Of a stretch of DNA of 64,000 nucleotides, positions 5,080 to 56,178 are shown piece by piece; the first letter of the stretch is position 1; every line of letters starts with the position of its first letter. This stretch comes from Hyphomonadaceae bacterium. Lineage in GTDB: Bacteria; Pseudomonadota; Alphaproteobacteria; Caulobacterales; Hyphomonadaceae. The DNA lies in the NCBI GenBank assembly GCA_947478925.1, contig CANJXY010000002.1:1-64000 (forward strand), given 5' to 3'. The position numbers were made by a program, and so were the translations under genes. A model generated the notes under the pieces. The model was given only the letters and a program-made list of their open reading frames with translations, searched no databases and was not told where the DNA came from.

Positions 5080-7497
5080 GTGATGGCTGAATCCCGGACC
5101 AAGTCTTCGACGCGGCATCTGGCCCGGGTCCTCGAAACCGGGGCGGCCTTGCTGGAGCATGGCGACGCGGAAGCGGCCCCGGCCCGGATGGTCAATGCAC
5201 ACCTGACCGCTATCCGGACACTGGGCGGGGAGAGCGAGGCTGCCGAGGCCGTTTGCGAGGCGATCCGTACGCGGCGGATCACACCGATTGCGCCCGCCAG
5301 CCTGATCGAAGCCATCGTGCCCACACGGATCGAAAGCGGGCAACTCCTGGCGGCCATTGCCGACGCAACGGCTGTGGCGTCGGCCCGCGCGGTTGCGACG
5401 CAGGCGTTCGTAGCCGTGGCCGATGCGCTGGAAGCGCTGACCATCGAGACAGACGATCAGGGACGGCCGACGACGTCCGCGCTGATCGATGCTTTCCGGG
5501 CCGGAGCGGATGCGGAGCTGGTCGAGATTGCCTTGTGCACGCCGGGCGGTCCTCGCGCCGCTGCGATCACGCTGCGCCGCCAGGCGACGGGCGCGCGCGA
5601 GCCAGGCCGGCAAGCCTATGTCATTCCCGGCTGGAGCGGGCTTGAAGCAGGCGATGTCGCGACCGCGATGGAACGGGTCAGCCGCACGCGGCTTGCGGTT
5701 CGCATTGGTATCGGTGCGGAAGCTGGCGATCCTGCCGCGCCGACGGCAGCGATCAACGCGGCGCGCTATGCGGCGACCGGCGATTTCGGGCTGCTGGCGG
5801 CGGACCTTTCGGCTTTGTCGAGCTTCATTCCGGCCTGCACGGTTCACATTGCGGGGCTCGCGGCTGCAGTCATGTCGCAAGGCATTGCATTCGACAGCGA
5901 AGACGGGATCGCGGCGGCGGTGAAGATATGTGGCATTGCGAAGGACGCCATCGGAGCGGTCACGATCGACCCCGCCTCTGCGGCGGCCATCTTCTGGCTC
6001 TCCGCAGAAAGCAGCGGAGCGGATCCGGTCGACCTGTTGTTGGCGAGCGAGGACGAGCAGACGCCGGAATTGTCATCGTGCGTTTCCTCCGCGCTGTCCA
6101 CGGCGGCGAGCAAGACCGAGGCGGACGATGTGCGCCTGCGCATTCTGGGTGCGCGCACACTGGACCAGATCGATGGGCTGGAGCGTCACAGACTTGAATC
6201 GCGTGGCATGACGGATGATGCGATGGACCGCGTGGAACAGGCCCTGAAAGAAGGCCTGAGCCTTGCAGCGGCGTTCTCACGCTGGGTTGTCGGCGATGAA
6301 GTCATCCGAAAGAAGCTGGGGCTTAATCCGGAAGCCTACGACACGGATGGGGAAAGCCTATTGCGTGCGCTCGGCATTTCGACGCGCGAGATCGACGAGG
6401 CGCGTGTCGCGGTGCAGGGTCGCCGGCGGCCGGTGTCGAACCCGAAATCTCCGCTGGCGCGTATTCTCGCCCGCTCGGACGGTCTGACGCCGGAAGCACG
6501 CGTGCGCATGGCGAAGGCGGTGGCGCCACTGCTGTCGCGCCAGCCGGTCATCACCATCGCCAACGGCGAGCAGTCGGATACCTCGCGCATGACGGTTCAT
6601 GCCTCTGTCCGCGCTGCAATGGGCGCAGGCCTGGGTGTCCGGATCGAGGCGGGGCGTCCTGCCGTCGACACCGAGTTGCAGCAGCGCATCTCCGAAGCAA
6701 AACGCCGAGCGCGGGCGCCGCTCGCCGCCGAGACACAGGCGCCGACCTTCGAGCGCCAGCCGCAACCGGCGCCCACGGCCCCTCTCTACGCACAGACACA
6801 TGCCGAAGAGTATATCGCCGAGCGTCGCCGCCTGCCGGATCGACGCAAGGGCTACATCCAGAAGGCAACCGTCGGCGGCCACAAGGTCTACCTGCATACC
6901 GGCGAGTTCGACGATGGCGAGTTAGGCGAGATCTTCATCGACATGCACAAGGAAGGCGCCGCCTTCCGGTCGCTGATGAACAACTTCGCCATCGCGATCT
7001 CGATCGGCCTGCAATACGGAGTGCCGCTCGAAGAATATGTCGACGCCTTCGTCTTCACCCGGTTTGAACCGGCCGGAGAAGTCACCGGCAATGATCACAT
7101 CCGCAAGGCGACCTCGATCCTGGACTACATCTTCCGCGAGCTAGCAGTGTCCTACCTTGGCCGTGACGACCTAGCGGAGGTTGAGAACCTCAGCCATGAC
7201 GGGTTGGGAAGCGGCGCGAATGAAGGTGAGGAGCCGACTGTGCCGGCGCCGCCAGTGCGCCCCGAACAGCTCATCTCCAAAGGCTTCAGCCGTGGCGTTA
7301 TGCCTGACAACATCGTTCCGTTTACGGCCAGGCGAGTGGCGGAAAGGCTGGAGGATGCAGATGGACCTTCTGTAACCCCGCAGCGCGGACCGGACTATCT
7401 GTCCGACGCCTGCCCGACCTGCGGACACTTCACGCTGCGCCCGGATGACGGCATTGCGGTGTGTGAAGCGTGCGGCGCGACGGTGCAGACCGCCTAG
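5080..7497 (+). CDS. Class II ribonucleotide reductase (NrdJ)-derived protein, probably non-catalytic; C-terminal TSCPD-like region plus zinc-finger
   Basis: C-terminus ([85 protein letters not shown]...[31 protein letters not shown]) reads as the NrdJ C-terminal region. Upstream, [18 protein letters not shown] and [14 protein letters not shown]...[15 protein letters not shown] look like eroded NrdJ segments. No N-x-C-x-E motif is visible. Confidence 0.8.
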
Positions 7498-52273: not shown

Positions 52274-52984
52274 ATGACGCTACCACAGACGGTTGAGCTT
52301 GCGCTCTCCATCGGGTTTGCCGTGATCGGCTACCTGCTAGGCTCCATTCCGTTCGGCCTGGTGCTGACAAAAATGGCAGGCCTTGGGGACATCCGCTCCA
52401 TCGGCTCGGGCAATATCGGCGCGACGAACGTGCTGCGCACCGGGCGCAAGGATCTCGCACTGGCGACATTGCTCCTTGACGCGGGCAAGGCGGGAGCGGC
52501 CTTCTTCATCGGCTGGGGCGTGGCGCAGCATCTCATCCAGAATTACATACCCTTAGGTCTCCGGGTCGACCTGTGGAGCACGCCCTACACCGTTGGGTTG
52601 TGCGCAGGGGCGGCCGCCTTCATTGGTCACTGCTATCCGGTGTGGTTGAAGTTCAAGGGCGGCAAGGGCGTGGCGACCTATGTCGGCCTCCTGTTTGCCG
52701 CGATGTGGCAGGTCGGGCTGGCGTTTGGCGCGATCTGGCTGCTGACGGCTGCGCTCTTCCGTATGTCGTCATGTGCCGCACTGGTGGCGACGCTGGTTAC
52801 GCCGTTGATTGCTTACTTCATCGTGCCGTACAGCAACGCATGGATCGTAACGGCTGCTTTGGCCGTGCTGATCTATTGGCGCCATCGCGCCAACATACAG
52901 CGCATCCTCGTCGGGACCGAACCCAAGATCGGATCCAAAAAGAAGGATGCCGCGCCGCCTGATGCCGAAAACGGCGCCGCATGA
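52274..52984 (+). CDS. plsY: Glycerol-3-phosphate acyltransferase PlsY
   Basis: [60 protein letters not shown]. Confidence 0.97.
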
Positions 52985-53039
52985 AGCGGCGCGCGCTTGC
53001 AGGGGGAGAGCGAGCAAACTGGTTGAGGCTGTCGCCAAC

Positions 53040-53291
53040 GCGGGACCTTCCCAGCGCAACCGCATAATCTCTGACTTGTCGCTAGCGACCATCATTGTGG
53101 AGACGGCGGAGGCGCCGGGCGAGCTGTCGCGCGCTCGGCGCGAGGCGCTTTAGCCCAAGCCGATGCGGATCGACGAGATCGTCGGCGCGATGGATCCGCA
53201 GCACCGACGGGTGCTCGCAGCGCAGGCCGAACTGGAACTGGCCGGGGAAGCGGTAACGCATGTGGAGAGCACGACGTCGTGGGCGGTTTGA
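53040..53291 (+). pseudogene. dprA: Remnant of DNA-processing protein DprA (Smf)
   Basis: Single frame: PSQRNRIISDLSLATIIVETAEAPGELSRARREAL* then [38 protein letters not shown]. This matches the DprA FPxRNRIISGLS..VVEAA segment and C-terminal winged-helix; internal TAG at 53151..53153 and the body is missing. Sits between plsY and topA. Confidence 0.75.
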
Positions 53292-53463: not shown

Positions 53464-56178
53464 ATGCAGGTCGTCGTCGTAGAGTCGCCTGGTAAGGTCA
53501 AGTCCATCAACAAGTATCTGGGCCCCGGGTACAAGGTGATGGCGTCGTACGGCCACATCCGGGACCTGCCCTCGAAGGACGGTTCGGTGAGGCCGGACGA
53601 AGACTTTGCGATGCTCTGGGACATCGACGGGAAGTCCGCCAAACACGTCAAGGAAATCGCCGACGCGGTGAAGGAGGCCGACGGCCTTATTCTCGCAACC
53701 GACCCTGATCGCGAGGGCGAGGCGATCTCGTGGCACGTGCTCGAGGCGCTGACCCAACGCAAGGTGCTGAAGGGTAAGACCGTTCAGCGTGTCACGTTCA
53801 ATGCCATCACCAAGAAGGCGGTGACCGAGGCGATCGAGAACCCGCGCCAGATCGACCAGCAGCTTGTGGATGCCTATCTCGCCCGCCGCGCGCTCGACTA
53901 TCTCGTGGGCTTTTCCCTCTCGCCCGTGTTGTGGCGCAAGCTGCCTGGCACGCGCTCGGCCGGCCGCGTCCAGTCCGTGGCGCTGCGCATCATCGTGGAC
54001 CGCGAGATCGAGATCGAACGGTTCATCAGTCAGGAATACTGGGACGTTGCCGCAAAACTCGCAGTGAACGGCTCCGAGTTCGAAGCGCGCCTGACCGAGC
54101 TCGACGGACAGAAACTGACGAAATTCTCGTTGCCGAATGCAGAGACCGCCGCCCGCGCGCTCGCGGCCGTGAAGACCGGCAGCTACAAGGTCGCCTCGGT
54201 CGAAGCCAAGCCGCACCGCCGCAATCCGCCGCCGCCCTTCACCACGTCGACGATCCAGCAGGAAGCTGCACGCAAGCTCGGCTTCTCGGCCAGCCGCACG
54301 ATGCAGGTGGCGCAGCGCCTCTATGAAGGCATCTCGATCGACGGTGAGACGGTCGGCCTGATCACCTACATGCGTACCGACGGCGTCCAGATGGCGGAAG
54401 AAGCCTATGCCGCGGCGCGCAGCGCCATTGGCCGCAACTATGGCAAGGAATACCTGCCCGACGGCCCGCGCCGCTACACGTCCAAAGCCAAGAACGCGCA
54501 GGAAGCCCACGAAGCCGTGCGTCCCACCGATTTCAACCGTCGCCCAGGCGACGTGTCGATGGAGCCGGACATGGCGCGGCTTTACGAACTCGTGTGGAAG
54601 CGCGCCGTCGCATCACAGATGGAAGCCGCTCTCATCGAGCGCACGACTGTCGAAATGCCGTCCAACGATGGCCGCGCCGTGCTTCGCGCCACGGGTCAGG
54701 TGATCAAGTTCGACGGCTTCCTGAAGCTGTATCAGGAAGGCAAGGACGAGAGCGACGACGAGGATGGCGGCCGCCTGCCGCCGATCAGCCAGGGCGACAC
54801 GCCGAAACTGGTCGAAGCCACCCACACGCAACACTTCACCGAACCGCCGCCGCGCTATTCGGAGGCCTCGCTGGTGAAGCGCCTGGAGGAGCTCGGCATC
54901 GGCCGCCCTTCAACTTACGCCTCTACGCTGTCAACGCTGATCGACCGCGATTACGTGAAGCTCGAACAGAAGCGCTTCATTCCCGAGGACAAGGGCCGCC
55001 TGGTCACTATCTTCCTCGAGAAGTTCTTCGCGCGCTATGTCGAATACGATTTCACGGCGGCGCTTGAAGAGAAGCTCGACCTCGTTTCGGACGGCAAAGT
55101 AGCGTGGAAGGATTTCCTCCGCGATTTCTGGACAGACTTCTCGGCCGCAATCGGCGCTACCGCAGAGCTGCGCGTCACCAACGTGATCGATGCGATCAAC
55201 GATGTGCTGGGGCCTTATCTCTTCCCGCCGCGCAACGATGCGGAAGGCAACGCCGTCGATCCGCGCGTGTGCCCGACATGCGGCACAGGCCAGCTGTCGC
55301 TGAAGCTCGGCAAGTTCGGCGCGTTCGTCGGCTGCTCCAACTATCCCGAGTGCCGCTTCACCCGCCCCTTCGGCGGGGACAAGCAGGGCAACGGCGACAT
55401 CCCGCCGGACGGCAAGGTGCTCGGCGCCAACCCGGACGGCATTCCCGTCCTGCTGAAGAACGGCCGTTTCGGCGCCTACGTGCAGCTCGGCCCGGACCCG
55501 ATCGAGAAGGGCGAGAAGCCGCGGCGTTCGTCCATTCCCAACGGATGGTCGGTGCCAGATCTCGACCTTGAACAGGGCCTCAAGCTGCTGTCGCTACCGC
55601 GCGAAGTGGGCAAGCACCCCGAAGACGGCGAGCCAATCATCGCCAATCTCGGGCGCTATGGCCCCTACGTGCAGCACATCAAGACCTACGCGAACGTGCC
55701 GGATGTGAACGAACTTTTCGAGATCGGGCTCAACCGCGCAGTCACCCTCATTGCCGAGAAACGCGCCGGAAAAGGTGCTGGCCGTGGACGCGGCCAAGCC
55801 GCCCCGCCGCTACGGGAAATGGGAAATCATACGGATGGAGAGCCGATACGCCTTCTTTCCGGCAGATTCGGTCCCTATCTGAAGCATGGGATGATCAACG
55901 CGAACATCCCGCGCGGCGCAGACCCGGCAACGATTACGCTTGAACAGGCGATCGAGCTGGTCGACACCCGCGCAGCCGCCGCACCTTCCACAAAATCGAA
56001 GGGCAGGAAGCCCGCAAAGAAGGCCGCGGCCAAGGCGCCAGCCCCCAAAAAGGCAACTGGGAAGGCTGTCGCCAAATCCACTGGAGAAACGAAATCAACG
56101 ACCACGAAGAAAGCCTCCGCCAAGAAGGCGCCGGCAAAATCAAAACCCGCCAAGAAGGCGACAAAAGAGAAGGCATGA
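53464..56178 (+). CDS. topA: DNA topoisomerase I
   Basis: VVESPGKVKSINKYLGPGYKVMASYGHIRDLP, LATDPDREGEAISWHV, LITYMRTDG, C-terminal zinc-finger and Lys/Ala-rich tail. Confidence 0.98.
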   Translation: MQVVVVESPGKVKSINKYLGPGYKVMASYGHIRDLPSKDGSVRPDEDFAMLWDIDGKSAKHVKEIADAVKEADGLILATDPDREGEAISWHVLEALTQRKVLKGKTVQRVTFNAITKKAVTEAIENPRQIDQQLVDAYLARRALDYLVGFSLSPVLWRKLPGTRSAGRVQSVALRIIVDREIEIERFISQEYWDVAAKLAVNGSEFEARLTELDGQKLTKFSLPNAETAARALAAVKTGSYKVASVEAKPHRRNPPPPFTTSTIQQEAARKLGFSASRTMQVAQRLYEGISIDGETVGLITYMRTDGVQMAEEAYAAARSAIGRNYGKEYLPDGPRRYTSKAKNAQEAHEAVRPTDFNRRPGDVSMEPDMARLYELVWKRAVASQMEAALIERTTVEMPSNDGRAVLRATGQVIKFDGFLKLYQEGKDESDDEDGGRLPPISQGDTPKLVEATHTQHFTEPPPRYSEASLVKRLEELGIGRPSTYASTLSTLIDRDYVKLEQKRFIPEDKGRLVTIFLEKFFARYVEYDFTAALEEKLDLVSDGKVAWKDFLRDFWTDFSAAIGATAELRVTNVIDAINDVLGPYLFPPRNDAEGNAVDPRVCPTCGTGQLSLKLGKFGAFVGCSNYPECRFTRPFGGDKQGNGDIPPDGKVLGANPDGIPVLLKNGRFGAYVQLGPDPIEKGEKPRRSSIPNGWSVPDLDLEQGLKLLSLPREVGKHPEDGEPIIANLGRYGPYVQHIKTYANVPDVNELFEIGLNRAVTLIAEKRAGKGAGRGRGQAAPPLREMGNHTDGEPIRLLSGRFGPYLKHGMINANIPRGADPATITLEQAIELVDTRAAAAPSTKSKGRKPAKKAAAKAPAPKKATGKAVAKSTGETKSTTTKKASAKKAPAKSKPAKKATKEKA

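Follow-up and report, generated by a model that had tools for sequence, protein, structure and literature searches.

Anatomy of the plsY-topA interval

The window analysed here is a stretch of 64,000 nucleotides from a member of the Hyphomonadaceae (assembly GCA_947478925.1, contig CANJXY010000002.1, positions 1 to 64,000 of the forward strand). Its gene order and GTA type would likewise place the organism among the Alphaproteobacteria. In the ORF listing of the window, plsY and topA are separated by 479 bases which hold no intact gene (Table 1). Judged from its sequence, the feature lying between them is a dprA pseudogene in the orthologous plsY-dprA-topA position.

Table 1. Genes and dprA relic pieces of the plsY-topA interval (positions in the window).
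Feature	Position	Strand	Description
plsY	52274..52984	+	Intact upstream neighbour; 236 aa ORF; stop overlaps the dprA start codon (ATGA)
dprA relic, piece 1	52981..53051	+	Start codon and first ~20 codons, deletion junction 1, RDLP stub of the core
dprA relic, piece 2	53052..53120	+	Rossmann-core motif QRNRIISDLSLATIIVETAE (intact counterpart KRNRVISGLSLASIVVEAAE)
dprA relic, piece 3	53121..53291	+	C-terminal winged helix to the native stop; in-frame TAG 53151-53153
topA	53464..56178	+	Intact downstream neighbour; 904 aa ORF; full-length match in each genome searched

A sequence-only reading of the interval had proposed such a pseudogene on the strength of two peptide blocks, QRNRIISDLSLATIIVETAEAPGELSRARREAL up to a stop codon and a second block following it, in the frame of position 53052. 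Both blocks are real, and the identification is upheld by tblastn with the DprA proteins of sister genomes, which gives similarity over three pieces collinear with the N-terminus, core and C-terminus of DprA, and by the intact gene which relatives carry in the slot. Its extent has to be revised. The last two pieces had been seen, while the N-terminal piece, beginning with the ATG at 52981, had been missed, and the relic as a whole spans 52981-53291. The second block was indeed present, but instead of ending after THVE it continues through STTSWAV to a TGA (53289-53291) which is the native dprA stop position; the sister proteins end ..GGTASRAV-stop.

Piece 1 was recognized by its match to the sister DprA N-terminus (62% over 29 aa, tblastn E 1.2e-8) and by nucleotide alignment to the dprA gene of genome G010, which is the nearest relative available (81% identity in PlsY) and possesses an intact dprA in the same slot. 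The sister DprA counterpart of this piece reads MKRRTLTGGERADWLRLSRTRGIG. When intact DprA proteins of the same genus were compared with the 700-base slot, tblastn E values lay between 1e-8 and 6e-8 for the core and between 1.8e-19 and 1.2e-16 for the C-terminal part. On these matches and the slot alignments a chance resemblance of the slot to DprA was rejected. The profile matches are weaker: piece 2 corresponds to positions 147-175 of PF02481 (DNA_processg_A; E 1.1e-4) and piece 3 to positions 25-58 of PF17782 (DprA_WH; E 1.7e-3). Both scores fall below the curated cut-offs, as is expected because the pieces are fragments. No complete Rossmann-fold DNA_processg_A domain is found in an open frame, positions 147-175 being all that remains of it.

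Lesions of the pseudogene

The alignment to the G010 gene reveals two internal deletions of roughly 570 and 230 nt, which leave 311 of 1,104 nt; together with a 1-nt frameshift and the TAG these constitute the lesions. In the G010 gene a copy of GCGCGGGAT stands at each edge, 5' and 3', of the first deletion, and the window genome has one imperfect copy of it. Since a repeat at both edges with a single copy left makes slippage or short-repeat recombination likely, two short direct repeats probably gave rise to the first large deletion. The resulting fusion preserves the reading frame over a few codons (TRDLP, cf. ARDFP), after which the loss of one A (AAG to AG) puts piece 2 one frame off piece 1. 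The TAG occupies a serine codon of the sisters. In G010 itself (contig C307), inspection of the alignment by eye revealed approximately 1.8 kb between dprA and topA, containing a putative serine hydrolase or beta-lactamase-like gene.

Over 99 comparable codons the pN/pS values between the relic and its sisters are 0.26-0.51, and those between intact pairs 0.12-0.24. The raised values fit a gene on which selection acted for the greater part of its history and was relaxed at a later time. They also bear on whether translation of the C-terminal remnant might still yield a small winged-helix protein that has taken on a new role. A 42-codon stretch is open from the ATG at 53163 to the native stop, and its similarity to DprA_WH is still visible; against this, pN/pS is roughly doubled and related genomes contain differently frameshifted remnants or none, so that we regard a surviving product as very improbable.

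The dprA and comEC slots within the genus

Intact dprA genes scoring above the Pfam cut-off were detected in nine of the 15 genomes of the genus. PlsY orthologues are present in all 14 genomes other than that of the window, at 62-81% identity, and in all five slots which were closely examined, including that of G010, the intact dprA lies between plsY and topA. The six genomes without dprA display four distinct slot states. Besides the relic in the window genome (G000), in G006 and G012 N- and C-terminal remnants are preserved about 1.1 kb downstream of plsY, separated in G012 by a glycosyltransferase-like ORF; G014 retains DprA residues 10-92 and 252-364; and G011 and G004 possess no remnant, their spacers measuring roughly 150-175 bases. 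In a PlsY-LexA-TopA tree these six genomes fall into four lineages, with lineages that have an intact dprA between them. The same tree pairs the window genome with G010 at moderate support (84/88), and the comparison of their slots would place the loss of dprA in the window genome after its split from this dprA-keeping sister.

The six genomes without dprA are also precisely those of the 15 from which the ComEC domain is missing. The window genome has a comEC relic in the lexA-gltX slot (contig C46, roughly 5448-6225) in which residues about 1-308 are spread over three frames and the remainder is deleted. Other comEC remnants occupy this slot in G006, G012 and G014, and none is found there in G011 and G004. 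In profile searches of the window genome ComF and ComM gave background matches only; this genome lacks an intact comEC, comF, comM and dprA import module.

The conclusion of the sequence-only reading that the lineage lacks DprA is borne out by a whole-genome profile search, in which no second intact dprA and no match to the DprA domain (PF02481) was found outside the slot. Its suggestion that another locus might supply the function finds no support, given the state of comEC, comF and comM. Second DprA-domain proteins, shorter, SLOG-like and encoded outside the plsY-topA slot, are present in G003 (contig C44) and G008 (contig C340); no protein of this type was found in the window genome.

The assembly is a draft of 344 contigs, and an intact dprA might have been dropped or collapsed in it. 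The sequence from plsY through the relic to topA is continuous, with diverged nucleotides and several independent lesions; the comEC relic lies on another contig; different relics occur in other lineages of the genus; and PF02481 has no other match in the genome. An assembly artefact, by which the pseudogene might have been refuted, can accordingly be given hardly any weight.

GTA status and import genes across the family

DprA loads imported DNA for recombination. In the reception of the virus-like gene transfer agent (GTA) in Rhodobacter the DNA is brought into the cell by ComEC, ComF and ComM and is recombined by DprA with RecA. Because receipt of RcGTA needs DprA, ComEC, ComF and ComM, the genomes were also searched for GTA markers. 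A genome was scored as GTA+ if either tail marker, GTA_TIM (PF13547) or DUF2460 (PF09343), was complete, the score thus referring to two markers and not to the full cluster. Both markers are absent from the window genome in profile searches. G006 and G056 were scored as GTA-, as they keep the edges alone of a deleted tail region: in G006 (contig C6, 95000-110668) the N-terminus of DUF2460 (1-120) adjoins the end of GTA_TIM (1106-1242), the middle having been deleted, and G056 has a similar deletion. Scoring the 73%-complete G010 as GTA- from PF13547 was rejected, since its DUF2460 match and a contig end show that its GTA cluster is cut by the contig.

The comparison covers 80 genomes (53 GTA+, 27 GTA-) on a TopA tree, which is a single-gene tree from a quick search. 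Outside the genus, losses were called from whole-genome profile searches, and the slot was inspected for three dprA relics only. No loss of dprA, comEC or comF, and no loss of comM by deletion, is seen in any of the 53 GTA+ genomes. Of the 27 GTA- genomes, 13 have lost dprA and 13 have lost comEC (Fisher 6e-8 for each over the 80 genomes, uncorrected for kinship). The full set of four import genes is retained in ten GTA- genomes, one of which, G003, has a frameshifted comM.

Dollo parsimony on the TopA tree yields 22 losses of GTA, 10 of dprA, 11 of comEC and 6 of comF, and every loss of dprA, comEC or comF falls inside a GTA- lineage. If the losing lineages are drawn at random from 75, the probability of this outcome is 8e-7 for dprA, 1e-7 for comEC and 4e-4 for comF. 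A stricter paired test has only 5-6 informative pairs and a median p of 0.03-0.06; none of the pairs for dprA or comEC runs against the expected direction. Losses of a single import gene are seen in G045 (dprA), G069 (comEC), G056 (comF) and G051 (comM). In a second genus the dprA relics differ from one another and from those of the window genus: the G066 relic retains nearly its whole length and carries a stop and a frameshift, and those of G065 and G059 have suffered larger losses.

The comM gene was dropped as a fourth clean marker. It is interrupted by elements of 3.7-4.9 kb in four GTA+ genomes belonging to three genera: G009 (C94), G075 (C1), G031 (C4) and G021 (C38). The elements encode an IS1595-type transposase (PF12762, PF12760) together with varied passenger genes. 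Because of these disruptions the main claim rests on dprA, comEC and comF. The insertion point is nearly identical in all four (about 304-308 of the TIGR00368 profile), and looks like a recurrent insertion site. A frameshift divides comM in G003 (contig C2, 31000-33100), a GTA- genome with intact dprA, comEC and comF; this may represent an early step of decay.

Order and cause of the losses

On its own the relic is an ordinary pseudogene. Set in the family-wide distribution, it is best explained as a single step in the breakdown of an entire DNA-reception module, in which GTA would have been lost first and the recipient machinery would then have decayed stepwise; we assign this reading a probability of roughly 0.7. 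The import module of the family would be maintained by selection for receiving GTA DNA. Once GTA had been lost from a lineage, for example through takeover by non-producing cheaters, selection on reception would end, and dprA, comEC, comF and comM would then decay singly through ordinary deletions, frameshifts and nonsense mutations. What the data show is the pseudogene, the missing or decayed partner genes, the lack of both GTA markers and the one-sided distribution; the GTA-first order, the selective cause and the loss of the phenotype we infer. A GTA-first order predicts that GTA- genomes keeping the import genes should exist and that GTA+ genomes lacking dprA, comEC or comF should not, as is the case here. 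The four genomes which have lost a single gene suggest intermediate stages, with no fixed order among the four genes.

The order is read from present-day tips, and loss of the import genes followed by very quick loss of GTA, or joint loss with a third trait, would look alike. In the former case GTA production would have become useless or harmful once import had failed, and GTA would have been rapidly deleted; the set contains no GTA+ import-negative genome, which very quick deletion could also bring about. GTA loss is, however, about twice as frequent as import loss (22 versus 10-11 Dollo events) and often occurs without it, and in G056 GTA is partly deleted while comF is the sole import gene lost. 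We therefore consider an import-first order quite improbable.

A less remote alternative, though still an unlikely one, is that natural transformation was lost and that GTA had no causal role: lineages for which free DNA had ceased to be profitable would have lost their com genes, the com genes and GTAs fading in the same lifestyles. ComEC, ComF, ComM and DprA are classical transformation proteins, and their joint loss with GTA would give a similar correlation. The dependence is one-sided, however: every import gene persists in 10 GTA- genomes, and a loss of dprA, comEC or comF is seen in no GTA+ genome. This asymmetry, which a shared lifestyle does not predict, argues against that explanation. 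The sequence-only reading had likewise connected the relic with natural transformation; dprA is gone, as it stated, but the distribution points rather to GTA reception.

The more general form of the GTA-first reading is that in this alphaproteobacterial family dprA, comEC and comF are kept mainly for the receipt of GTA DNA and not for natural transformation, and that GTA loss comes first and is followed by a recurrent, stepwise and often complete decay, as would be expected under cheater collapse. To this we give even odds. The pattern amounts to a natural experiment on what maintains altruistic GTAs and on what the com genes of the Alphaproteobacteria are for. Some ten independent losses of dprA, all in GTA-less lineages, together with the GTA-less keepers would speak for GTA reception being the function under selection; the same pattern would fit a cheater-driven collapse of GTA. 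The close-relative pairs with intact and decayed genes are available for direct tests.

Comparison with known systems

Relative to the DprA/Smf family (PF02481, PF21102 and PF17782; TIGR00732), the relic matches the N-terminus, the Rossmann-core motif and the winged helix, in that order and in the conserved slot, but with about 70% of the gene deleted, a frameshift and a TAG it is unable to make DprA.

The role of dprA, comEC, comF and comM in GTA reception is already published, and so is the finding that the evolutionary rates of comEC, comF and dprA covary with those of GTA genes. In the open-licence papers searched, we found no report of a recurrent series of import and GTA co-losses or of its order. 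As cited in PMC10883770, the work of Brimacombe (2014, 2015) established that receipt of RcGTA in Rhodobacter capsulatus needs ComEC, ComF, ComM and DprA; the same genes are likewise listed for GTA uptake in Bartonella (PMC6899734). The four genes of the R. capsulatus machinery, as given in that citation, are those missing or decayed in the window genome; here they have been lost together with the GTA markers.

Decay of a natural-transformation gene in nature has also been described for comEC of Piscirickettsia salmonis (PMC12955456); there the gene is interrupted by transposable elements in one species, which differs from a recurrent co-loss with GTA. A further parallel is the work of Kogay and Zhaxybayeva (2024, PMC10883770) on the covariation of rates between GTA and host genes, in which comEC, comF and dprA are likewise tied to the GTA. 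The same authors mention pseudogenization and loss of the GTA cluster in several lineages, and cheater takeover has been proposed there as the cause of GTA loss. That study dealt with evolutionary rates in GTA-containing genomes, whereas the evidence presented here is a one-sided pattern of loss, with relics, in genomes from which GTA is absent.
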